Part shown: piece by piece, positions 4,353-62,561 of the stretch
How the letters are laid out: the number at the start of each line of letters is the position of its first letter
Position numbering within the stretch: position 1 is the first letter of the stretch
NCBI GenBank assembly: GCA_019695185.1
Contig: JAIBAN010000038.1
Span: 1 to 64,000, forward strand
Source: Blastocatellia bacterium
GTDB taxonomy: Bacteria; Acidobacteriota; Blastocatellia; Chloracidobacteriales; Chloracidobacteriaceae
Reading direction: 5' to 3'
Length of the DNA stretch: 64,000 nucleotides
Made by a program: the position numbers and the translations under genes
Notes under the pieces: model-generated
The model's input: the letters and a program-made list of their open reading frames with translations, nothing else
Told to the model about the DNA's origin: nothing
The model's database searches: none

Positions 4353-5570
4353 GTGAACCGTTCCTTTTCTTCTCGCCTTTTTCTCAGCCTCGCGCTTGTG
4401 GCATGCGCGGCGTTTTTTGGTGGATGTAATCAATCCGCCTCCGGAACCAGCGGCGGCGGCAGTGCCGAAGTTGCAGCCAAAGTCAATTCAGTCGCCATTC
4501 CCATGACCAGGGTCGAACGCCAGCTTGAGTTGACCTTGAAACCCGAAGGCGTCAAACCGACGGATTTGAGCCCGATTGAATTGGCCTCGACCAGACTCAG
4601 AATTCTGGAACAACTCATCAGCCAGGAAATCATGGTCCAACGCGCACAAAAGGACAGCGTACAAGTGACGGATGACGAAGTCCGCCAAGCCGTGCAAGCG
4701 TTTATTCGGGAAAAGACCGGTACCCAGGAGGAATTTCAGAAGCAACTCAAGGACATTGGCCTGACCGAAGAGGAATTCCGCAACGAACAACGCCAGATTC
4801 TGCTCATCAACAAGTGGCAGGAAAAACAGAAAGTCCGGATTCCGGCTCCCTCGGAAAAGGAAATTTCCGACTTTTACACCCAGAACCGGGACCAGTTCAA
4901 AATCGGACGCGGCGTCTATCTGAGCCAGATTATGGTTGACCCGGCGAACAACGGGCTCAAAAACGATGCCATCGGCGCGGAACAGGCCAAACAGAAAATC
5001 GCCGGGGTTTCCACTCGCCTCAAAGCCGGAGACGACTTTGCCACAGTTGCCCGCCTCCTTTCCGAAGATATGCGCACCGCAGTCGGCGGCGGCGATATGG
5101 GTTTTGCACCTGAGGAAGCCATGGCTCAAACCTATCCGGATGTGCTGGTGAAGCGGTTTTTCACGATGCGCGAAGGTGAAATCACTGAACCAATTCAGGG
5201 TTCGGAAGGCCGGATGTATATCTTTAAGGTAACCGGCAAGAAAACCGAACCGGAAGAACTGAAACTGGAAGACCCGGAAGTCAAGAAACGGATTGCCGAT
5301 GTCATTCGCAACCAGCGCGAACAGGTTATGAATGCGGCGCTCTTGTCATTGGCCACTGCCGAAGCACGAGTGGAAAACTATCTGGCCCAACGCGTGTTGG
5401 AAAATCCGAGCAACTTCGGTTCGCTCCGGCCCAACAGCGCGATGAATTCAGGAACGGTGCCACCTCCGGCGGAAACCAAACCTGCGGAAACCAAACCTGC
5501 CGAACCCAAACCCACCGAACCCAAGGCGGAAGAAAAGAAACCGGCTGAAACGAAACCCGCCACCAAATAG
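4353..5570 (+). CDS. PpiC/SurA-type peptidyl-prolyl isomerase lipoprotein
   Basis: A predicted periplasmic chaperone/isomerase for outer-membrane proteins. The 405 residues begin with a lipoprotein signal ending in FFGGC (Cys25). A SurA-like N-terminal helical domain follows, with a VNSVAIPMTRVERQL start and FIREKTGTQEEFQKQL, then one parvulin domain around 180-300 (VYLSQIMVD, FATVARLLSEDMRTAVGGGDMGF). The last 45 residues are a low-complexity Pro/Lys/Glu repeat (KPAETKPAEPKP) that could span periplasm or peptidoglycan. The GTG at 4353 has TTAGGAG 9 bases upstream. The stop codon abuts heptad element B. SurA or PrsA role is inferred. Confidence 0.88.
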   Translation: MNRSFSSRLFLSLALVACAAFFGGCNQSASGTSGGGSAEVAAKVNSVAIPMTRVERQLELTLKPEGVKPTDLSPIELASTRLRILEQLISQEIMVQRAQKDSVQVTDDEVRQAVQAFIREKTGTQEEFQKQLKDIGLTEEEFRNEQRQILLINKWQEKQKVRIPAPSEKEISDFYTQNRDQFKIGRGVYLSQIMVDPANNGLKNDAIGAEQAKQKIAGVSTRLKAGDDFATVARLLSEDMRTAVGGGDMGFAPEEAMAQTYPDVLVKRFFTMREGEITEPIQGSEGRMYIFKVTGKKTEPEELKLEDPEVKKRIADVIRNQREQVMNAALLSLATAEARVENYLAQRVLENPSNFGSLRPNSAMNSGTVPPPAETKPAETKPAEPKPTEPKAEEKKPAETKPATK

Positions 5571-5700
5571 GGTTCAGGGTTCAGGGTTCAGGGTTTCGGG
5601 GTCTGAAAGTTTTGAGTTTGGAGTTGTGATAACTTTGGCTCAGATTTTCAAACTTCTGAACCCTGAACCCTGAACCCTGAACCCTGAACCCTGAACCCTA
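5571..5700. repeat. Heptad-arm inverted element B (GGTTCAG/CCCTGAA)
   Basis: The left arm (5571-5597) is three to four GGGTTCA heptads starting at the base after the upstream stop codon. The right arm (5656-5700) is six CCCTGAA heptads ending three bases before the ABC-F start codon. The core is about 58 bp. The whole intergenic space between the two genes is this element. Confidence 0.92.
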
Positions 5701-13081: not shown

Positions 13082-14053
13082 ATGACAAAACATTTTTCGG
13101 AAGTTATCGTGATTGGCGGAGGCGTTTCCGGGCTCACCTCCGCCATTCGGCTTTTGGAGCAGGGCCACAAGGTCCGCATTCTGACCCGCGAACTGCCCCA
13201 CCAGACCACTTCGCATGTGGCGGCGGCGCTTTGGTATCCGTATCGGGTGTTTCCGGAAAACCGGGCGGTTGAATGGGCGCGGGTGGCTTGTGAAGTTTTC
13301 TACCAACTGGCCGAAAACCCGGCTGCGGGTGTGTTTCTTTCGACGTTTCTGGAACTCTATGACACGCCGATGCCCGACCCCTGGTGGAAACCGGCGGTGC
13401 GGCAGTTTGGCCGCCCAACCGGAAAAAAACTCCCGGCGGCGTATGTGGACGGCTACGAAATCGAGGCTCCGATTATTGAAATGCCAATATTCCTGCCGTT
13501 CCTGCTTGACTGGTTTTACCGTTTGGGCGGAATGCTCGAAATCCGGGATTGCCCGCATCTGGCGGAACTGGCTGCTCCCGGCAGGCTGCTGGTCAATTGT
13601 ACCGGAGTTGGAGCCCGAACCTTTGCCGCCGACCCGACGGTGTACCCGATTCGGGGGCAGGTGATACGGGTTCAACCCAGGGAAAAAATCCGCCGTTCGA
13701 TTGCCGACGAATATGGACCGATGGCGCTGACCTATGTGATTGCCCGTTCCAACGATTGCATTTTGGGCGGTACGGCCCAGGTTGACGAATGGGAAACCGT
13801 TCCGGATGCCGCCACTGCTGCTGATATTCTGCGCCGCTGTCTGGTCCTCGAACCAGCCTTGCAGGACTCGACCATTCTGGAGCATAAAGTCGGACTTCGG
13901 CCCGGTCGTCCGGAAGTCCGGCTGGAATTGGAGCACCTCACGCCGGATGCGGCAGTGATTCACAACTACGGCCACGGCGGGGCAGGTGTGACGCTTTCGT
14001 GGGGCTGTGCGGCGGAAGTGGCGACTCTGGCGGAGCGATTTCGAAAACCCTGA
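13082..14053 (+). CDS. FAD-dependent D-amino-acid oxidase family protein
   Basis: The 323 residues open with an FAD-binding Rossmann motif VIVIGGGVSGLTSAI. They include LVNCTGVGAR, RGQVIRVQ, the substrate-side GLRPGRPEVRLE and a terminal HNYGHGGAGVTLSWGCA, all typical of D-amino-acid oxidase and D-aspartate oxidase. The expected reaction is FAD-dependent oxidative deamination of a D-amino acid, giving hydrogen peroxide; the substrate cannot be read. ATG 13082 places the Gly-rich motif at residue 10; a start nine codons upstream overlaps the frameshifted gene. The stop codon and the last two residues fall in the CCCTGAA array. Confidence 0.85.
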   Translation: MTKHFSEVIVIGGGVSGLTSAIRLLEQGHKVRILTRELPHQTTSHVAAALWYPYRVFPENRAVEWARVACEVFYQLAENPAAGVFLSTFLELYDTPMPDPWWKPAVRQFGRPTGKKLPAAYVDGYEIEAPIIEMPIFLPFLLDWFYRLGGMLEIRDCPHLAELAAPGRLLVNCTGVGARTFAADPTVYPIRGQVIRVQPREKIRRSIADEYGPMALTYVIARSNDCILGGTAQVDEWETVPDAATAADILRRCLVLEPALQDSTILEHKVGLRPGRPEVRLELEHLTPDAAVIHNYGHGGAGVTLSWGCAAEVATLAERFRKP

Positions 14054-14184
14054 ACCCTGAACCCTGAATCCTGAACCCTGAACCCTGAACCCTGAATCCT
14101 GAACCCTGAACCCTGAACCCTGAACCCTGGACCCTGAACCCTGAACCCTGAACCCTGGACCCTGAACCCTGAACCCTGAACCCG
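14047..14184. repeat. One-sided CCCTGAA heptad array C
   Basis: About 19-20 CCCTGAA heptads fill the whole gap between two co-directional genes, with variants CCCTGAATC and CCCTGGA at intervals. No opposite arm is present, unlike the other elements. The array gives the upstream gene its stop codon and ends 7 bases before the next ATG. On the minus strand it begins GGGTTTTCGA, the junction sequence found in other elements. Confidence 0.92.
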
Positions 14185-16967: not shown

Positions 16968-17102
16968 TTTGGAGTGCGGGGACTTGTCACCGCTTTGTTT
17001 TTCGGCGACTTGTCGCCGAATTCTGCTCTTTGTGCTTTTTCCAGGAGGTGGCGACAAGTCGCCACCAGTAAAAGCGGTGACAAGTCCCCGTACTCCAAAA
17101 AA
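16968..17102. mobile_element. MITE-like palindromic element
   Basis: Imperfect terminal inverted repeats of about 50 bp bound a 135-bp unit. The left end reads TTTGGAGTGCGGGGACTTGTC and the right end is its near-perfect reverse complement, ending CCCCGTACTCCAAAA. Inside lie two nested palindromes, CGGCGACTTGTCGCCG and GGTGGCGACAAGTCGCCACC. There is no coding capacity. It fits a non-autonomous insertion element or long hairpin; no target duplication is certain. Confidence 0.75.
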
Positions 17103-33913: not shown

Positions 33914-34050
33914 CAGGGTTCAGGGTTCAGGGTTCAGGGTTTTCGATAACCAGGAAATTTGAAGTTCTGTAAGGGTTTTAATTGTCCATTGTCCATTGTC
34001 CATTGTCCATTTCAAAAACCCTGAACCCTGAACCCTGAACGCTGAACCCG
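33914..34050. repeat. Heptad-arm inverted element D with nested TCCATTG array
   Basis: The left arm (33914-33940) is GGGTTCA heptads ending GGGTTTTCGA. The right arm (34018-34050) is CCCTGAA heptads that encode the end of YvcK. Inside the core lies a second, different heptad array: about four units of ATTGTCC (33981-34011). Core bases GTTTTCGATAACCAGGAAAT are closely similar to the core of the element at 60548. Confidence 0.9.
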
Positions 34051-36421: not shown

Positions 36422-36526
36422 TGCGCAATCCTTCCCGAAAGGAGTGAAACCCAAGCTAACTTGTGTGGATTTTTGGATTTAGAGGGAACATTCTACTGTC
36501 CAACCCCAGGGAAGTCAATTCTTTAA

Positions 36527-36716
36527 GGACTGAGGACTGAGGACTGCAATGAGGGCTGAGGACTGAGGACTGAGGACTGAGTTTTCAAAATCGAAAGACA
36601 CATGGTTTGAATCGTTTTTTCTCCTGTTTTTTCAGGTGAGGGCAATTGTTTACACCGGGAAACAAACTCAGTCCTCAGTCCTCAGTCCTCATTGCAGTCC
36701 TCAGTCCTCAGTCCTT
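36527..36716. repeat. Heptad-arm inverted element E (GGACTGA) with mirrored interruption
   Basis: The left arm (36527-36581) and right arm (about 36668-36716) are reverse complements. They share even the odd heptad break: GGACTGCAATGAGG on the left matches CCTCATTGCAGTCC on the right. The core, about 85 bp, begins TTTTCAAAATCGAAAG, a string repeated in element F. The right arm encodes the C-terminus of the aldo/keto reductase. Confidence 0.93.
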
Positions 36717-38130
36717 GAAGAAGGGCCAGCCCGTCAAAGGCAGGAAAGCCAGGGACAGACATGGCGTCGTCCACATACGCAGGCCGGCGCATTCCCAGCA
36801 GGGAACAACTCAGTCCAGGGGTATTGCCCAGCACAGCCAGGGCCATTTGACTGAGCGAATGGCTGGTTTGCGCCGGATACCCGGCTTGGAAAAGCCGTTC
36901 CCGGATGTGGTCCGATTGAGGCTGCTGCCGGGCCGCCACAAAATCTCCGATATGAGCCAGCAGCGGATTGATAAGGGCTACAAATTCATCCTGCCAGCGG
37001 TCGAAAGCGGCTGCCTGATGCTCCATTTTTTCGCCGGTTTCGGCCAGCCAGTTGCGAATCGGGGAAATCACATAGCGGCCTGCCACCTGTTCCCACATGT
37101 CGGTTGAATTGACCTGAGCCACAATCGAGGCAATGTGGTCGGCCATGCCGTTCCGCCCCATAAGCGCCATCCGATGTTCTTTGGAGAGCTTCATTTCCAG
37201 GCTTTTAAGCGGTTGCAGGAGGACTGCTAACTGAGCCGGTCCCGGAACCGGAGTGCCAGGCTTGACAAAATCCGCCAGCCGGATGAGGGCATTGCCGGAG
37301 AAGGCGTTCAAGGGACGGTTGGCCAGCGTTCCCAAGCCCTCCCGGCGGCAATATTCGAGCGGCGTCAGCCCGTCATTGCTGTGATTGAGGGCCACGCCTC
37401 GTTCAAACAGGTTGAAAGGGAATTGAACCACGTTGAAATGATGGTTGCTGGCCACTGCCTGCGCCTGTTCCAGACAGCGGGCGATGCTGGTATGGGTAGG
37501 GTCGGAAAGCGGCAAGGGATAGTTGTTTGAGGAAATGCCGTAACACCCAATTCTGCCTGCCTGCACTTCGCTTTCCAGATATTCAAACGCCAGCCGCACG
37601 CGGCGGTAAAACTCGGTCCGGTCCGCTTCGGTTAAGCCGTGCTTGGCCCGGTAATTGATGAAATATTCCGGATTGTGGAGCAGAAACACATCAATGGTTT
37701 CAAGCTGCATCCGGTTCCGGCTGCGTTCAATTTGGGTTTTGAGAAAATCAGGGTGGATGCAGTGCCACAGCCCCGGCCCGTATTTGACCACCTCCGGGAA
37801 CGTCTGCTTTTGCGCCAGAGCCATGTTTTCGCCCTGAATATAGCCGCCTTTGGTGACTACAATCACGTCTTCGCGCTTGAAATCGGGCAACACGCGTCCA
37901 ATGGTCCGTTCCGCTCCGCCATCCGTGTAGTTGGCGCTGGTATCGAGCAGGTTTCCCCCTTTTTCAAAGTACCGCCGCATGGCGGCTTCATGCGTGGGCA
38001 CATCCTCAGCCACCCGATAACAGCCAAACCCAAGCGGGTGGCACCAGAGCCCGGTTGTGCCAAGCGGGTTAAACCCTGCTTGGGGTGAGGTGGAAAAACG
38101 CTGTGCGGAGCCAGGAAGGTAAGTGGACAT
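36682..38130 (-). CDS. Aldo/keto reductase family protein
   Basis: 482 residues, longer than the usual 270-350. The N-terminal TIM barrel (about 20-310) shows GFGCYRVAEDV, NLLDTSANYTDGGAE (catalytic Asp and Tyr), VIVVTKGGY (Lys) and DVFLLHNPEYF (His). A helical C-terminal extension (about 320-470) is of unknown role. The final residues (GLRTEDCNED) are encoded by the GGACTGA heptad arm of element E, which also supplies the stop codon. AAGGA precedes the ATG. It is expected to reduce carbonyls with NADPH; substrate unknown. Confidence 0.88.
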   Translation of the reverse strand: MSTYLPGSAQRFSTSPQAGFNPLGTTGLWCHPLGFGCYRVAEDVPTHEAAMRRYFEKGGNLLDTSANYTDGGAERTIGRVLPDFKREDVIVVTKGGYIQGENMALAQKQTFPEVVKYGPGLWHCIHPDFLKTQIERSRNRMQLETIDVFLLHNPEYFINYRAKHGLTEADRTEFYRRVRLAFEYLESEVQAGRIGCYGISSNNYPLPLSDPTHTSIARCLEQAQAVASNHHFNVVQFPFNLFERGVALNHSNDGLTPLEYCRREGLGTLANRPLNAFSGNALIRLADFVKPGTPVPGPAQLAVLLQPLKSLEMKLSKEHRMALMGRNGMADHIASIVAQVNSTDMWEQVAGRYVISPIRNWLAETGEKMEHQAAAFDRWQDEFVALINPLLAHIGDFVAARQQPQSDHIRERLFQAGYPAQTSHSLSQMALAVLGNTPGLSCSLLGMRRPAYVDDAMSVPGFPAFDGLALLQGLRTEDCNED

Positions 38131-38142
38131 GAGAAATTCCTT

Positions 38143-38823
38143 TTAGACGGGTGGCAAGTAACCAAGTTTATGAAGTGCAGTCCGGGCTGCAATCATAAAT
38201 TTTTGAAATGATGGCACTTGGGAGAGTTTATCCAAGGTGATTTTTTCACCGATTGGTTGGTACAGGTCAGCAATTTGAATGTCATTGCGACGCTTTTTAG
38301 GTAACTCCACAGCCACCCGGCGAATGGCTTCGCGGATAGTTTCCTTGGGGTCAGGGTAGGATTGTGGTGGTCGATGAATTCCAAGCTCTGAATCGGATTT
38401 GTGTGTGCCATTGATTTCTCTTTTGAGGAGTTGGGTATCGGCTAGCAACCAGGCTTCGGTCATTTGGACCGGAACAATGGGCACAAGGTTCTGGCAAATG
38501 TTGTTGTTTGAATCAGCCACTCTTACAACCTCTTCAAAAGCCGGTTGGATTTTTGAGTCAAAAGCCCTTTCATCGGTTATTTCATCCGCATCTGTATGAA
38601 CACATAGCACCATACAATGTTCCTGACTGGCTTTTTGGGCTGCCTGCAAAACCATGGTGGCAAAATCTTCTTTGGCTGCATCAATCAAGGTTGCGGGGTA
38701 GACTTCAATGATTTGAGGGCACTCATAAGCTACTTTCTCGAAAGTGCGCTCCACCAGTGGAAGTAGAAACCGGGTATCAGTTCGACCCTCGGTCATAATT
38801 CCAATGCTCAGATAATTGCTCAT
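38143..38823 (-). CDS. Toprim-like / DUF4276-like protein of a two-gene module
   Basis: 226 residues. Acidic motifs in Toprim order: TEGRTDTRF at 11-19 (Glu), VHTDADE near 75-81 (Asp-x-Asp) and PVQMTEAWLLAD near 116-127. This is consistent with a metal-dependent nuclease or nucleotidyl fold. The start overlaps the stop of the upstream ATPase gene by 4 bp (ATGA, 38820-38823), a sign of translational coupling and obligate partnership. Pairs of an SMC-like ATPase with a Toprim protein occur in OLD, PARIS and AbiL-type antiphage systems; which of these, or whether a new type, cannot be decided here. Confidence 0.72.
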   Translation of the reverse strand: MSNYLSIGIMTEGRTDTRFLLPLVERTFEKVAYECPQIIEVYPATLIDAAKEDFATMVLQAAQKASQEHCMVLCVHTDADEITDERAFDSKIQPAFEEVVRVADSNNNICQNLVPIVPVQMTEAWLLADTQLLKREINGTHKSDSELGIHRPPQSYPDPKETIREAIRRVAVELPKKRRNDIQIADLYQPIGEKITLDKLSQVPSFQKFMIAARTALHKLGYLPPV

Positions 38824-40214
38824 GGTTCCAATTCAGAAAGAGTGGTTTCAAAATCCGTGCTGGTCAAAAATCCTCTAACCTCTCGAAGTGAAAGAGTTTT
38901 TTCAAATTCGGAGGGAAACCGGCTGAGTTCCGGCAGTTCATCATTTGCGACTGGCAAGGCACGGGTCACGCGTTTCTTGTGTCTTTTCCCATTTTCCTGG
39001 CCCACAGATGCCACAAATTCAAAAAACCAGCACAAGGTCCGCTTTTTATCGAGTTGGAAGATTTCATTGAGTAAGACGGGCGAATGGGTATTGACGATAA
39101 CCTGCCGGAGGGGGAAGTCCGGTTCCGAGAAATCAGTAGCCAAATCCTGGAGCAGTTGGGCGATAGCCTTCATGCGAAACGGATGGACGCCGTTTTCGGG
39201 TTCTTCGAGGCAGAGGGTACCGCGATGAGACTCATCATAAAGCAAGGTGCATAATGCCAACATTCGGAGCGTTCCTTCGGAAAGGACACGGGCGTAAAAC
39301 TCAGGGCCATCGCTTTGTCGAACCTTCACAACGTATTGGTCACCGGCTTCGTCGTCAAATATGTTCAATTCAATGAGCTTTGGGAGCAAGCTGTTCACCT
39401 TGCGAGTGATAAACGGAAGGGCGTCCGGGTCTTCAAGTTTGATGCGGTGAAGAACCGCTGCAAGGTTACCGCCTTCATGGTCGAGGTGAGATTCAGAATA
39501 TCGCGGACTCGGTTTGCGAAGTTTTTCCGGGTTGAGTTGGAGAACCTTCCAGTTCCGGAGTTCTTCTTTTACAGCAGCCAAATGTGGCCATTCGGAAGAG
39601 CTTTGGAGAAAAGTGCGGGCAATCAATCCCAAAAACCGCATTTCGCTAGGTTGTCCTTTTACATCATTTCGAGAAACTTGTGTAAGGCCGTTAGGAAGGA
39701 GCTGATGTTTAATGAATTGGTGGGATTGCAAAGCAATTTCGAGAGATGGGCAAAAACTAGGTCGGGACTCCTTTGAAATAAATGGTTCAATCCATCCATC
39801 TTTATCTGCCGTAAGTGAAAACAGTGCCTCCTTTGAAACAAATAATTCCTCAAACCCGCGATTTATCATCCGCTTGATAGTTACCTCATATCTCAATCGA
39901 GTGTATGTGAGCGTTATCTTCTCTCCCCAGTCATCTTGAACATTTTTATCCAGTAACAGTTCTACCGCGAACGACATTTCATCGGCATAGGTGCCATCAG
40001 CATATTGGGTAAAAAGCTCAATAGGTTTTCCCCGCATATCAGCAAACGCCCGGTTCACATTTTCAGCCGTAACCAGTCGTGACAACAAATGCAGGGCATC
40101 AAACAAATTGCTTTTCCCGGCGGCATTGGCACCGGCAATCACGGTCAGCGGAGCAAAATCCATGTGGAAATTGGAAAAAGTTTTGAAGCCGTCAATTTCA
40201 ATTCTGGTTATCAT
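38820..40214 (-). CDS. SMC/OLD-like AAA ATPase of a two-gene module
   Basis: 464 residues, AAA_21/RecF-like. It starts MITRIEIDGFKTFSNF and has Walker A GANAAGKS (28-35), signature region LSEGTLRMLALC, Walker B LCLEEPENGVHP and the switch VNTHSPVLL. An inserted helical part (about 90-290) replaces the long coiled coil of SMC proteins. A short C-terminal extension follows the switch. There is no fused Toprim; the 4-bp overlapping downstream gene supplies one. Such ATPases usually sense phage components and activate the nuclease partner; here that is inferred. Confidence 0.85.
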   Translation of the reverse strand: MITRIEIDGFKTFSNFHMDFAPLTVIAGANAAGKSNLFDALHLLSRLVTAENVNRAFADMRGKPIELFTQYADGTYADEMSFAVELLLDKNVQDDWGEKITLTYTRLRYEVTIKRMINRGFEELFVSKEALFSLTADKDGWIEPFISKESRPSFCPSLEIALQSHQFIKHQLLPNGLTQVSRNDVKGQPSEMRFLGLIARTFLQSSSEWPHLAAVKEELRNWKVLQLNPEKLRKPSPRYSESHLDHEGGNLAAVLHRIKLEDPDALPFITRKVNSLLPKLIELNIFDDEAGDQYVVKVRQSDGPEFYARVLSEGTLRMLALCTLLYDESHRGTLCLEEPENGVHPFRMKAIAQLLQDLATDFSEPDFPLRQVIVNTHSPVLLNEIFQLDKKRTLCWFFEFVASVGQENGKRHKKRVTRALPVANDELPELSRFPSEFEKTLSLREVRGFLTSTDFETTLSELEP

Positions 40215-40429: not shown

Positions 40430-41650
40430 ATGACACCAGAACCAAACGAAAACACGCCACCAACTCCAACCGAACCCCAACCTGAAGCCTCTGAGCCGAA
40501 GCAGCGCATCCGCCTGCCCAAACTGAAAGCGACTGATTTTCAACATCCGCTCGATGTTGCGGCGCTTGATGCCGTGAAGCGGGCCAAGGGGCTTGATTTT
40601 GTGGTGCGCAAACTCAATGAGTATGGGTTTGAACGCTGGTATTACATCAACAACATTGCCGATAACATCCGGGTGTCGCAAAAACAATGCAAAAAGGTCC
40701 ACGATATTCTGCGCGAAGCCTGCGACATTCTGGCCGTGCCGGAACCGCAGTTGTACTTGGACCAGAATCCATTTGTGAATGCGTACACAATGGGAACGGA
40801 ACGCCCCTTTATCGTTCTGCAATCGGGACTGGTTGATTTTCTGACGGAAGATGAACTGCTCTGTGTAATTGCCCACGAAGTTGGCCATATCAAGTGCGGG
40901 CATGTGCTCTACAAAATGATGGCGCAGTTTTTACAGGTCATCATTGAAATTGTGAGCGATGCGACCCTGGGGCTGGGTAAAATCATCGGCTCCGGTTTGA
41001 TGCTGGCGATTTGGGAATGGGACCGCAAGTCAGAGTTGTCCTCCGACCGGGCCGGTCTGTTGGCGGTTCAGAACCTGGAGGTTTCACTTAACACCCTCAT
41101 GAAACTGGCAGGTGGCTGCAAATCCATTTTCCAGCAATTTGACCGGGATGAATTTTTGAAACAGGCCGAAGATTACCGCGAACTCGACAAAGAGGACCTG
41201 AACCGGGTTTTCAAGTTCTTACAGGTCTATAACCGAACCCATCCGTTTCCGGCGTTGCGGGCCAAGGAAATCAAACAATGGGCGGAACATGGCAGTTACG
41301 CCTCGATTCTGGACGGTTCGTTTTATACGCAATACATTCCGCCGCCCCAGGGCTATCTGCCACCGGGGGCTGGTTATCAGGGAGGTCCGGGAGTTCCTCC
41401 ACCTCCGCCGTATCCGGGCTATGGTGGTCCGGGAGGGCTGACCGACCCGATTGTTTCCTGCCCAAGCTGTTATGCCGTCCAGATTGACCCGCAGGCCAAG
41501 TTCTGTTTCCAGTGTGGAACCCCGCTGGCTCCACCGCAACCTCCACCGGCGGCACCTTCAAACGAACCGAAATGTTTCAACTGCGGTCATGCCATTAAGA
41601 AAACAGACATGTTCTGCCCGCAGTGCGGTTTTAATACCAGACTTGGCTAA
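40430..41650 (+). CDS. M48-family metallopeptidase with Pro-rich linker and two zinc ribbons
   Basis: 406 residues. The peptidase (about 40-275) has the zinc motif HEVGH at 149-153 in VIAHEVGHIKCGHVLY and the downstream third-ligand region SELSSDRAGLLA. A Gly/Pro/Tyr-rich linker (about 300-335) joins two zinc ribbons at the C-terminus (CPSCYAVQIDPQAKFCFQC and CFNCGHAIKKTDMFCPQCG). No strong membrane segment is seen, unlike HtpX, so a soluble cytosolic protease is suggested. Substrate unknown. An upstream gap of 215 bp separates it from the divergent ATPase gene and probably holds both promoters. Confidence 0.87.
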   Translation: MTPEPNENTPPTPTEPQPEASEPKQRIRLPKLKATDFQHPLDVAALDAVKRAKGLDFVVRKLNEYGFERWYYINNIADNIRVSQKQCKKVHDILREACDILAVPEPQLYLDQNPFVNAYTMGTERPFIVLQSGLVDFLTEDELLCVIAHEVGHIKCGHVLYKMMAQFLQVIIEIVSDATLGLGKIIGSGLMLAIWEWDRKSELSSDRAGLLAVQNLEVSLNTLMKLAGGCKSIFQQFDRDEFLKQAEDYRELDKEDLNRVFKFLQVYNRTHPFPALRAKEIKQWAEHGSYASILDGSFYTQYIPPPQGYLPPGAGYQGGPGVPPPPPYPGYGGPGGLTDPIVSCPSCYAVQIDPQAKFCFQCGTPLAPPQPPPAAPSNEPKCFNCGHAIKKTDMFCPQCGFNTRLG

Positions 41651-41655
41651 AACCA

Positions 41656-41820
41656 AGACTGAGGGGCTAAAACGAGGACTGAGGACTGAGGACTGAGGAC
41701 TGAGCTTTTCAAAATCGAAAGCTGTGTTGTTCAAAGAGATTTTCTTCCCAGTCTTTGGTGCGACAATGCCTGTTGAGAGTGGGAAGTACCCTCAGTCCTC
41801 AGTCCTCAGCCCTCAGTCCT
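41656..41820. repeat. Heptad-arm inverted element F (GGACTGA)
   Basis: The left arm is 41675-41704 and the right arm 41790-41820. The core is about 85 bp and starts CTTTTCAAAATCGAAAG, shared with element E. It fills the gap between two convergent genes. Confidence 0.92.
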
Positions 41821-42040: not shown

Positions 42041-42205
42041 AGGGTTCAGGGTTCGGGGTTCGGGGTTCGGGGCTCAGGGTTCGGGGTTCAGGGCTCAGGG
42101 TTTCGCAATCAACTGCCTGGAATCCTGGATGCACTACAAGTCAATATTCAGTCATACTGACCCTGAACCCCAACCCCTGAACCCCGAGCCCCGAACCCTG
42201 AACCC
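42041..42205. repeat. Heptad-arm inverted element G (GGTTCAG/GGTTCGG)
   Basis: The left arm (42041-42102) mixes GGGTTCA, GGGTTCG and GGGCTCA heptads. The right arm (42161-42205) has the complementary mix CCCTGAA, CCCCGAA and CCCCGAGC, so the variants co-occur in both arms. The core is about 58 bp. It lies between the zinc-ribbon gene and the DnaJ-like gene. Confidence 0.9.
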
Positions 42206-45137: not shown

Positions 45138-45293
45138 GAATTGAGAAGTTCGAATTGAGAATGGAGAATGGAGAATTGATTGGGAATTGAAAACTCATGA
45201 GGACGGGGATTCAGAAGCCATCATTCTCCCCACTCCTGCAATTCCCAATTCTCAATTCCCAATTCTCAATTCTCAATTCTCAATTCTCAATTG
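45138..45293. repeat. Heptad-arm inverted element H (GAATTGA/CAATTCT)
   Basis: The left arm (45138-45190) is GAATTGA and GAATGGA heptads. The right arm (45238-45293) is CAATTCT/CAATTCC heptads. The core is about 47 bp. It lies between two genes of one cluster on the same strand, so it would be part of their mRNA. Confidence 0.88.
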
Positions 45294-47338: not shown

Positions 47339-47902
47339 GTGCGTTAAAACACACGGCTACAATCAGCCGTCGCTGACGCGACGGGCGACTTTTCAGCCCC
47401 AAAGGTAGCGTTCATCGAATTCGATTCCGTGTTTGCGCAGGAATTTCAGATATTCGGCTTGAAAGGTAACTTCCTGATGATGTTCCCGCTGGTTTTGGAT
47501 ATAGCGAATGACATTCGTCAGGTTGGATTTGCTGACGGTGAACGCCCCATACCCGTCCTGCCATTTGAAAAGGCATAAATCGGGGAAAGTTTCGTGAATC
47601 CATTTTGAAGAATCGCCTTTCAGATATTGGGCGATTTGGCTGGGGGCCAAAGTTGGATGGGCTGCCACCAAGGCATGGATGTGGTCTTCGATGCCTCCGA
47701 TTTGGATGGGTGTCATGTGGCGGGTTTGGGCAATAGCACCAATGAAAGCCCAAACCCGTTCGTCAATGCCTGGTTTCAGGAAAGGAGCCCGGTTTTTGGT
47801 GCTGAACACAAGATGGTAATACAGTGCTGTGTATGTGTTTGCCATCGCTTTGACATCCGTCGCGTCAGCGACGGTTGATTGTAGCCGTGTATTTTAATGC
47901 AC
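47339..47902. mobile_element. IS200/IS605-type insertion element
   Basis: A transposase gene is bounded by 46-bp near-perfect inverted repeats at 47339-47384 and 47857-47902 (about 43 of 46 positions match). Each end contains the palindrome CCGTCGC TGAC GCGACGG and an adjoining CACACGGCTACAATCA block. Long subterminal hairpins recognised in single-stranded DNA are typical of this family and of REP-associated transposases. No accessory tnpB is present. Confidence 0.85.
47393..47845 (-). CDS. tnpA: IS200/IS605-family Y1 transposase
   Basis: 150 residues, full length for TnpA. It is an HUH single-strand transposase: metal-binding His55-x-His57 in GIEDHIHAL and catalytic Tyr115 in VIRYIQNQREHH, plus FKWQDGYGAFTVS and the terminal YLKFLRKHGIEFDERYLW. 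The frame is intact, so the element may still be active. It could also be a RAYT-type transposase given the flanking palindromes; it lacks the long C-terminal extension of many of these. Confidence 0.93.
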   Translation of the reverse strand: MANTYTALYYHLVFSTKNRAPFLKPGIDERVWAFIGAIAQTRHMTPIQIGGIEDHIHALVAAHPTLAPSQIAQYLKGDSSKWIHETFPDLCLFKWQDGYGAFTVSKSNLTNVIRYIQNQREHHQEVTFQAEYLKFLRKHGIEFDERYLWG

Positions 47903-49292: not shown

Positions 49293-49481
49293 CAGGGTTC
49301 AGGGTTCAGGGTTCAGGATTCCGGGTTCAGGGTTCACCTAAAAGAAGTTTTTGCTTTTTCGGTTGCTGGTAACAAGCGAATTTCTGTATTTTGTTGAGTA
49401 AATTATTATGTACCATAGGGTGTTCCCGAACCAAAAGCATTTCCTGAACCCTGAACCCTGAACCCTGAACTCTGAACCCGG
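49293..49481. repeat. Heptad-arm inverted element I (GGTTCAG/CCCTGAA)
   Basis: The left arm (49293-49337) is GGGTTCA heptads with a GGATTCC variant. The right arm (49443-49481) is CCCTGAA heptads with a CTCTGAA variant. The core, about 105 bp, is A/T-rich (TTTTTGCTTTTTCGG, GTAAATTATTATG) and must hold the promoters of the two divergent genes. Confidence 0.9.
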
Positions 49482-56921: not shown

Positions 56922-57098
56922 GCGTGCGCCTCCTCGCGGAAAAATCACAAAGCCGGAAAATGAAGCTTCAGTGTAGTGTTGTTGTAGGTAAAGGTAATTA
57001 ACGACCCCGGGATGCGCCGCGAGTATAGCACAACTTTTGTGATGACAAAGAGGAAAGAGGCGGAGTGAGGAGTGGGCCCTGGAACTGGGGAAGAACAA

Positions 57099-57251
57099 GG
57101 AGTGAGGAGTGAGGACTGAGGACTGAGGACTAAGGACTGAGCATTTTTTCAGGTAGCTTTGAGCTAGCAGGGTTGATTGAATCAATTTTTGGAAACAATA
57201 CAAACCACCGTATCAAAAAACTCAGTCCTCAGTCCTTAGCCCTCAGTCCTT
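57099..57251. repeat. Heptad-arm inverted element K (GGACTGA/GGAGTGA)
   Basis: The left arm (57099-57141) contains GGAGTGA and GGACTGA heptads with one GGACTAA variant. The right arm (57221-57251) carries the matching TTAGCCC/TTAG variant at the mirrored place. The core is about 78 bp. It lies between two minus-strand genes. Confidence 0.92.
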
Positions 57252-59852: not shown

Positions 59853-59986
59853 TCAATTGAGAATTGAGAATTGAGAATGAAAAACCAAATACAGGGTTTT
59901 AACCTTGGTTTTTGACTTAAATTCCGAGCAGACGAAAAAGAATTACCCTTTTATTCTCAATTCTCAATTTTCAATTCTCAATTCTT
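59853..59986. repeat. Heptad-arm inverted element M (GAATTGA/CAATTCT)
   Basis: The left arm (59853-59878, AATTGAG units) and the right arm (59953-59986, TTCTCAA units) flank a core of about 75 bp. It begins just after the cysC stop and ends 3 bases before the next ATG. Confidence 0.9.
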
Positions 59987-59989
59987 CCT

Positions 59990-60577
59990 ATGGTTCATTT
60001 CAAACCACGCGAATATCGGGATTTTTTTGGCAAGCTGGCCAAGTCACGGGTTTTAACGGATGCCCAGGCCGACCGGGCAACCCAGGCGCTGACCCAGGAA
60101 CTCCACCTGCGCGGCATGGTCTGGGCCCTCAAGCGGTATTTTGAAGTGGTTCCTGGCGTGAATTGTTGTTTGCGGCCTGAGGTTGAAGGATTCAACCCTG
60201 ATTTTCTGGTCTGGAAGCAGGACCGTGTCCTCCTGGCTTTTGAAACCCTGGCCGAGCCGAAACCAATTGAGGCTCTATACCGTCAGGCCGAAGCCTACAT
60301 TGATGAATTTGAGGCCGGGGAAGTGTTTTTTTTCTTTCCGGCAAATCTTGAACATGAACGCTTTGAAGCTTTTCATCCGGTCAGCGGCGCGACACGCCGC
60401 ATTGGAATGTGGATGAAACGATGGCACAGCAGTGAGTTGAATCTTGATTTCACCAGTCCGGACGGCTGGTTGCGCATTTTTGATGCCCGTGCTTCGACTC
60501 AATTGATGACCCCCATTGAAATGATGGAAGTGCGGTTTGATAGGGAAAGGGTTCAGGGTTCAGGGTCTAGGGTCTAG
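59990..60577 (+). CDS. Hypothetical protein with repeat-encoded C-terminus
   Basis: 195 residues, soluble. The segment ALTQELHLRGMVWALKRYFEVVPGVNCCLRPEVEGFNPDFLVWKQDRVLLAFE resembles the core order of restriction-endonuclease-like folds (PDFLVW then FE), but a full catalytic triad is not clear. It ends ERVQGSGSRV, encoded by heptad element N, so the native stop was probably lost when repeats arrived. TTCCT precedes the ATG with no classical Shine-Dalgarno site. Not recognised. Confidence 0.65.
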   Translation: MVHFKPREYRDFFGKLAKSRVLTDAQADRATQALTQELHLRGMVWALKRYFEVVPGVNCCLRPEVEGFNPDFLVWKQDRVLLAFETLAEPKPIEALYRQAEAYIDEFEAGEVFFFFPANLEHERFEAFHPVSGATRRIGMWMKRWHSSELNLDFTSPDGWLRIFDARASTQLMTPIEMMEVRFDRERVQGSGSRV

Positions 60578-60720
60578 GGTCTAGGGGTGAGGGTTCAGAG
60601 TTTTCGAATACCGGAAATCTGAGATTTTGGCTCAAGACTCAAAAACCCCCCAGACTCCAGACCTCAGACCTCAGACCTCAGACCTCAGACTCCACACCCT
60701 GAACCCTGAACCCTGAACCC
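60548..60720. repeat. Composite heptad element N (GGGTTCA, GGGTCTA, AGACCTC)
   Basis: The left arm (60548-60599) has GGGTTCA then GGGTCTA heptads. The right side has AGACCTC heptads (60650-60690) and then CCCTGAA heptads (60696-60720). The outer words pair with each other (GGGTTCA with CCCTGAA). The inner words (GGGTCTA, AGACCTC) are partly complementary, so the arms remain mirror images. The core GAGTTTTCGAATACCGGAAAT matches element D. Confidence 0.9.
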
Positions 60721-60721
60721 T

Positions 60722-62371: not shown

Positions 62372-62373
62372 CG

Positions 62374-62560
62374 TTTTGAGTTCCGCCTTCAGGCGGCAGT
62401 TTTGAGTTCCGCCTTCAGGCGGCAGTTTTGAGTTCCGCCTTCAGGCGGCAGTTTTGAGTTCCGCCTTCAGGCGGCTGACCTTGGTCTTATTAAAATCAAA
62501 TGAAAAAACACAACCTAAAGGCTGTGCTGCAAACAGCCGCCTGAAGGCGGAACTCAGAAC
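62374..62560. repeat. Tandem 26-bp hairpin repeats with inverted copy (element O)
   Basis: Four tandem copies of a 26-bp unit (62374-62475), each TTTTGAGTTCCGCC then TTCAGGCGGCAG, contain the perfect stem CCGCC TTCA GGCGG. One inverted copy (62536-62560) follows after a 60-bp A/T-rich core. The layout (arms plus core) is as in the heptad elements. It separates two convergent genes and may terminate both. Confidence 0.9.
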
Positions 62561-62561
62561 T

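Follow-up and report, generated by a model that had tools for sequence, protein, structure and literature searches.

Mirrored irregularities in the arms of inverted heptanucleotide arrays of a Blastocatellia genome

Element E, one of hundreds of paired arrays of heptanucleotide words in the genome of a Blastocatellia bacterium (8.33 Mb in 222 contigs), carries one private irregular break at the mirrored place in both of its arms. The first-pass annotation of the window (the whole stretch of DNA analysed here, 64 kb of one contig) had described arm variants of this kind in elements E, K, and G; the observation is right for E, and in general it is right in a weakened form. Along with the mirrored private break, we observe arm sharing above chance, dispersal of the elements, fast turnover of their arms, a fixed polarity, and a place behind genes. 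The arms of these elements appear to live mainly by slippage and occasionally by copying from each other. It is difficult to account for long perfect stems by single mutations; the main proposal for how matched stems originate and are kept is fold-back template switching. Since one genome here holds many elements in which the word, the unit count, and the private errors can be read for each arm, this proposal becomes testable by counting.

Element E

The arms of element E (36519-36574 and 36667-36722) are 56 nt each and form an ungapped inverted repeat, 96% complementary, on either side of an 85-nt spacer. Its parts are as follows.

36519-36581, plus strand: left arm, with (AGGACTG)n, the break, 7 nt of outer inverted-repeat extension, and one extra heptamer at the inner end
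36541-36554, plus strand: left copy of the private break GGACTGCAATGAGG, from the genome pattern search
36582-36666, no strand: spacer, 85 nt
36667-36722, minus strand: right arm
36687-36700, minus strand: right copy of the private break GGACTGCAATGAGG, from the genome pattern search

That both arms bear GGACTGCAATGAGG at the mirrored place was borne out exactly, with an offset of one heptamer: the array inside the break is 27 nt long on the left and 20 nt on the right, and the left array has one heptamer more, at its inner end. The break is private genome-wide, as its sole sites in 8,329,599 bases, with up to one mismatch allowed, are the two arms of E, once each; the pattern read backwards, used as a control, gave 3+1 matches. 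The inverted repeat extends 7-8 nt past the arrays (TTCTTyAAGG) into the coding end of the adjoining gene, and the right arm encodes approximately the last 13 residues and the stop of an aldo/keto reductase-like ORF (36682-38130, minus strand). For the minus-strand RNA, the predicted fold has −119 kcal/mol (z −15.2), and 0 of 200 shuffles were equally stable. The spacer occurs only once in the genome at E≤0.001, an IMG/VR scan with the reductase gene adjoining E gave no relative, and the genomes searched hold no orthologous copy of E in which the order of events could be followed. E is best read as a recent arm-to-arm copying event, after which one heptamer was gained or lost at the inner end. 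We considered E and the element at 41674 as direct relatives, since their spacers have a local score of 23 and no shuffled pair reached 18, but we do not rely on this kinship: global spacer identity is 68%, shuffles reach up to 71%, and the genome search found no relative of the E spacer.

Paired elements in the window

Tandem Repeats Finder gives 48 rows for the window, mostly of period 7 and mostly in inverted pairs. Besides E, the arrays and elements are the following (without strand unless one is given; the core family is treated below).

511-700: paired ACTGAGG element; breaks mirrored and similar, not identical, with GGATATT in both arms
5569-5699: paired AGGGTTC element
14046-14183: long single AACCCTG array with no partner
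33914-34049, minus strand: paired AGGGTTC element of the core family; unpaired inner array ATTGTCC, core at 33937-33978
41674-41820: paired ACTGAGG element, with a 20-bp tandem repeat (41645-41684) at its left flank only
42041-42205: element G, AGGGTTC/GGGTTCG arms, GGTTCGGGG in both arms
45138-45292: paired AATTGAG-type element
49293-49479: paired AGGGTTC element
57098-57250: element K, ACTGAGG arms, GGACTAA left and GGGCTAA right
59855-59985: paired AATTGAG element
60548-60721, minus strand: mosaic AGGGTTC element of the core family; core at 60600-60632, unpaired inner AGGTCTG array, arms non-identical

For K, the annotation had placed GGACTAA in both arms, which fails on inspection of the letters: at 57127 the left arm reads GGACTAAGG, the right arm bears, at 57234, the complement of GGGCTAAGG, and what the arms have in common is CTAAGG. 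In G, the first of the two variants claimed for both arms is present in both (GGTTCGGGG, at 42050-42078 and 42189), while the second, GGCTCAGGG, is in the left arm only, and the right arm has GGCTCGG. In addition, GGTTCGGGG is not private to G, as it is found at 20+13 places in 1.27 Mb. The letters first reported are thus exact for E alone, and the arms of K and G have related, not identical, variants.

Other features of the window were noted alongside these. A 50-nt inverted repeat at 16968-17099, without heptamers, has GGCGACTTGTCGCC-type palindromes and is 86% complementary. Tandem arrays of a 26-bp REP-like unit (GAGTTCCGCCTTCAGGCGGC plus AGTTTT) occur at 62373-62561 and at many other loci of the same genome, and these arrays are also arranged as inverted pairs. 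An IS200/IS605-type Y1 transposase gene with palindromic flanks of its own lies at 47393-47845 (minus strand), and genes for a DUF4276 protein and an AAA_21 ATPase stand side by side at 38143-40214 (minus strand); such pairs may belong to defence systems. The CofD protein of the window has its best matches, at 57%, in Chloracidobacterium and Blastocatellia MAGs, which places the organism near these among the acidobacteria, and the search gave no close named relative.

Genome-wide census, polarity, and gene context

The census rests on growing samples of the genome, namely 61 stretches (1.132 Mb), then 70 (1.271 Mb) and 126 (1.373 Mb), which are non-random, as they comprise the contigs first in the list plus chosen places. 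Arrays of period 7 number 357 at a score of at least 14 in 1.132 Mb, most other periods having 0-6, with 53 arrays at period 9 and 243 at the harmonic 14. A set of 424 arrays yields 88 strict inverted pairs in which both arms use one word (40 ACTGAGG, 27 AATTGAG, 15 AGGGTTC, and six others), and 39 further neighbour pairs of opposite sign have different words, for a total of 127. In all 127 pairs (1.271 Mb; the window and stretches L040-L151) the G-rich word stands on the left and the C-rich word on the right, with no exception. Likewise, among 387 scored arrays, a 14-nt partner within 200 nt was found on the expected side for 203, on the wrong side for none, and was absent for 184. Arrays of period 9 (AGTCTTGGG / AAGACTCCC) keep the same polarity rule, 17 to 0, and in sampled stretches of a second genome (G009, below) 12 of 12 pairs are G-rich inward. 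This strict G-inward polarity holds across unrelated words.

The strict elements lie largely outside genes: of the 88, 76 are not more than half inside the 781 genes that a simple codon-score caller predicts. Where neighbouring genes are 100 nt or more apart, a strict element occupies 18 of 76 convergent gaps, 39 of 264 tandem gaps, and 1 of 73 divergent gaps. In 54 tandem cases a median of 1.5 nt separates the upstream stop from the start of the element, which overlaps the 3' end of the gene in 24 of them; the next start codon is a median of 11.5 nt away. T content beyond the 3' arm is raised (0.333 vs 0.242), and TTTT occurs within 15 nt past the 3' arm in 36 of 176 flanks vs 925 of 9036 control 15-mers, an enrichment found in a minority of flanks. 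This context fits a 3'-end hairpin, and a function, if there is one, would probably lie at gene 3' ends. A search of Rfam gave no window match above the gathering score. No target-site duplication of 4-6 nt was detected at the edges used for the 88 elements, where shared 4-, 5-, and 6-mers number 26, 11, and 1 vs 25.8, 7.0, and 1.5 expected. As a separate observation, one right arm (L075:140-208) contains three copies of a 32-bp higher-order unit, made of heptamers plus a GGATTGGTCC linker.

Arm matching within elements

Arm-arm identity within elements was compared with that between elements of the same word, and the outcome depends on the word. For ACTGAGG (n=37) the claim of matched arms holds, with a score of 28.8 within vs 26.6 between elements and 0 of 20,000 permutations reaching it, the signal being driven by E and the element at 543; for AATTGAG (n=27, P 0.096) and AGGGTTC (n=15, P 0.059), however, the comparison is not significant. 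The outer flanks have no within-element similarity in AATTGAG (P 0.69) and AGGGTTC (P 0.68) elements. Irregular 11-mers common to both arms sum to 136 over the 127 elements vs 86 under permutation within the left-arm word (largest value 137 in 10,000), and 15 elements have at least four of them vs 6.4 expected. Of the private 12-mers, those present just twice in 1.27 Mb, 17 recur in the opposite arm of their own element vs 0.5 expected, and these are concentrated in 5 of the 127 elements. Another 105 private 12-mers are shared with the arms of other elements in consistent orientation, vs 3 in inconsistent orientation, which indicates that irregularities also travel between elements.

Whole variant units are present in 39 of the 88 strict elements, of which 12 have one in both arms, identical in 6; in the other 33 of the 39 the variant unit is not common to both arms. 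For the three common words (82 elements), an identical shared unit variant was observed 3 times vs 0.88 expected (P 0.04). Apart from E, the mirrored pattern is clear at L054:2378, L047:985, L151:16374, and L093:18566. The within-element arm match is therefore above chance genome-wide, with a signal that comes from a minority of elements. The earlier argument that independent slippage would not carry private variants to the other arm stands in one respect: private sharing within elements is above chance, so in at least some elements the arms did not arise as separate products of slippage. It must be qualified in another, as most unit variants occur in one arm only.

A dispersed family with a common spacer

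Spacers cluster in 21 of the 127 elements, and the largest cluster led to what we call the core family. Its layout is directional, with (CAGGGTT)n, a CTTTT joint, an unpaired inner array, a core near AAACCCATCCAGAATTTCAAATTTTCTGGTATTCGAAAACCC, and then (TGAACCC)n. A sequence model of the core gives at least 97 matches at E≤0.01 in this genome, a lower bound, as 150 of 6079 candidates were scored, and 0 matches in nine other genomes of the same bacterial family. In copies across L037-L216 and in the two window members, the inner array keeps its place while its word differs by copy (AATGGAC/AATTGAC, AATTGAG, AGTTTTG, or AGGTCTG), and this is word replacement in situ. Copies of a recent subfamily lie at contig ends in L161, L163, L165, L166, and L169; the assembly probably breaks at these repeats, which would make the copy number an underestimate.

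Approximately ten copies of the core family are nearly alike in their inner sequence and have unrelated flanks. Eight of them were read from end to end: their 75-nt inner parts are a few bases apart, but the number of units is 3-6 in left arms and 4 to at least 9 in right arms (one right arm is cut by a contig end), with differing variants. Because near-identical spacers stand between different arms, the arms turn over faster than the spacers. A slow-arm estimate from four secure pairs (spacers 77-84% identical, arms 0-3.4% from perfect) was rejected as coming from a biased set, since those elements had been picked by their clean arrays; in elements found by the core alone, right arms deviate at 54 of 468 positions and the core at 121 of 600.

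The core family also allows arm sharing to be tested with word and ancestry controlled, as all 61 copies belong to one family. Summed over the copies, irregular 8-mers common to both arms number 119 vs 52 by permutation (P about 1e-4), with a mean of 1.95 for own arms vs 0.84 (left-right), 0.86 (left-left), and 0.94 (right-right) for arms of different copies. Any irregular 8-mer is shared in 22 of the 61 copies, chance being 26%, and without the nine strongest copies P is 0.12. The numbers of units in the two arms are uncorrelated across the 61 copies (rho −0.06).

Mechanism and alternatives

Taken together, we lean slightly towards 7-nt slippage with occasional fold-back copying between arms. 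E belongs to a large set of dispersed, non-coding hairpin elements in intergenic gaps, mostly directly behind a stop codon. In each, a 5' arm of a G-rich heptamer is followed by a spacer of roughly 30-125 nt, after which the complementary word makes up the 3' arm. Replication slippage in 7-nt steps may gain, lose, and homogenise units in each arm alone, and this would be the commoner event. Occasionally the strand would fold back and the polymerase would switch template inside the hairpin, so that one arm is rewritten from the other; such a switch could carry an irregularity such as the GGACTGCAATGAGG of E to the mirrored place. Slippage, template switching, and the role of a 3'-end RNA hairpin are all suggested by patterns in one genome. 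Slippage in each arm independently appears to be ongoing and commoner because 33 of 39 variant-bearing elements do not share the variant and arm lengths are uncorrelated. Template switching between the arms of inverted repeats, with arm homogenisation, has been described in yeast (PMC8604942), and template switching between such arms has been proposed for RNA hairpins (PMC8794818). Against fold-back copying, most variants are unshared, about nine copies carry the signal of the 61, and the AATTGAG and AGGGTTC elements are non-significant when taken alone.

The annotation had left the origin of the arms between one inverted duplication and homogenisation through a hairpin. Of these, homogenisation appears to fit better, and it had been missed that the elements form dispersed families. 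A single inverted duplication at the birth of the element or of its founder, after which the arms diverge by slippage and mutation, with E as a young case, is less likely and would be our second choice. The inverted repeat of E runs 7-8 nt past the array into the gene end, as one copying event would give, and a founding duplication agrees with most later variants being in one arm only; however, the variants of a founder should vanish fast, as the arms of recent copies differ, yet some old-looking copies are still matched. Mirrored private variants would have to be young, because copies with near-identical spacers already differ in their arms, and later homogenisation accordingly seems a better fit than one duplication at birth. 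The arms of one word also have common ancestry, as spacers are common to several places.

Independent slippage in each arm combined with selection for base pairing, for example in an RNA hairpin that ends or protects transcripts, seems unlikely as the whole account. The elements stand behind genes and are nearly absent from divergent gaps, the stretch past the 3' arm is T-rich, and the fold predicted for E is strong, all of which such selection would favour. It requires, however, neither a 7-nt period nor a mirrored non-heptad insertion like CAATG, and nearly half of the scored arrays (184 of 387) are without a 14-nt partner within 200 nt. We judge as more doubtful still that recombination between the arms of different elements moves the spacers, or that each insertion builds new arms, either of which would give spacers and arms separate histories. 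Near-identical spacers between different arms, with unrelated flanks, are what this would produce, and left-right irregularities of different copies are as alike as those of same-side arms, but the match of own arms beyond that to other arms goes unexplained unless both arms arise in one event.

Mobilisation of REPIN-like elements by the Y1 (RAYT/IS200-type) transposases of this genome is very improbable, and we rejected it as the main reading: the elements are paired inverted repeats around a spacer and the genome has eleven Y1_Tnp matches, one of them in the window, but the nonpalindromic heptamer is unlike a REP and the Y1 genes stand apart from the arrays, with none of the 5 own and 6 G009 genes immediately flanked by heptamer arrays (5 of 11 own and 6 of 9 G009 matches; three genes have one array about 0.7-1.5 kb off, and the others none). 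Three further causes were discarded. G-quadruplexes as a common cause do not suit AATTGAG, a word of 27 strict elements that has no GG; an arm keto/amino asymmetry (after PMC8794818) does not suit the polarity, as the T-A balance of the words, judged by eye, goes both ways; and telomere-like addition at broken ends would yield polarity, not shared spacers.

Beyond slippage with occasional fold-back copying, the elements could be a genome-wide natural record of fold-back template switching, with the polarity reflecting a directional synthesis step and not ancestry, a proposal that we put forward with considerable doubt. In it, private errors would originate by slippage in one arm and be transferred to the other by synthesis on the hairpin template. 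The polarity is kept by about nine words in strict pairs and by further words in mixed pairs, by a nonamer, in two genera, and reportedly in Xanthomonas. If the proposal is true, the elements could serve to count template switches in wild populations.

Comparison with known systems

REP sequences and REPINs are dispersed inverted pairs around a spacer, found mostly behind genes. Our elements resemble them in being dispersed, spacer-separated inverted pairs, whereas their arms are tandem arrays of non-palindromic heptamers and none of the Y1 transposase genes examined adjoins them; the heptamer words are not the imperfect palindromes of 20-40 nt by which each REP is defined. The predicted fold of E and the gene context do give a stable hairpin behind a gene, as in an intrinsic terminator, and dispersed copies with a common internal sequence, a MITE-like trait, are found in the AGGGTTC core family only. 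In heterocystous cyanobacteria, STRR heptanucleotides likewise comprise several heptamer words in intergenic regions.

Within the phylum, three tandem units of AGGACTG occur in 11 of 396 genomes and three of CAGGGTT in 8 of 396. G009, which belongs to another genus of the family and has an 8.4-Mb genome, has CAGGGTT arrays in bulk (693+541 matches), with AGGACTG arrays absent, and in a gene block shared with our genome paired arrays are likewise present in the gaps GlmU|CofD and CofD|reductase, but their words differ. A backwards control, (GTCAGGA)n, was itself frequent in some other genomes of the phylum, such as G177, G271, and G295 (13+13, 9+10, and 7+14 matches), and so many matches indicate that other heptamer words are abundant there. 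Among the open-licence papers searched, we found none on heptamer pairs in Acidobacteriota or on private variants common to both heptamer arms.

In the P6b stem of the Nostoc tRNA-Leu(UAA) intron, both sides of the hairpin are described as consisting of 7-nt repeats of class I (TDNGATT) or class II (NNTGAGT), in which units are gained and lost and one class takes the place of the other without loss of the stem (Kaasalainen et al. 2015, PMC4476775). The hairpin sides made of heptamers are alike in both systems, but P6b is a single intron locus and our elements are intergenic and genome-wide. The TAACTGA repeats of Beggiatoaceae, too, are dispersed intergenic heptamers, reported as direct repeats that precede start codons, one case being inverted (PMC4679880), whereas here inverted pairs stand behind genes.

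Another close likeness is to the GGGAATC heptamers of Xanthomonas, which form intergenic arrays, often of four units, with close pairs on opposite strands and the G-rich strand inward, 70 and 75 in two genomes (Rehm et al. 2015, PMC4692102). Few of those arrays lie between divergent genes, their length varies widely among close relatives, and few heptamer pairs are reported for Nostoc (PMC4692102). Our elements share the intergenic heptamer arrays and the opposite-strand pairs with the G-rich word inward; a shared spacer family, and private variants matched between the two arms, are seen here and are absent from the passages of Rehm et al. considered. Xanthomonas has one word, read there as a G-quadruplex (PMC4692102), whereas many words are found here, and the AATTGAG elements, with no GG pairs, yet match the others in architecture and are close to them in arm length (32 nt). 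The preference for four units in Xanthomonas thus need not stem from G-quadruplexes.
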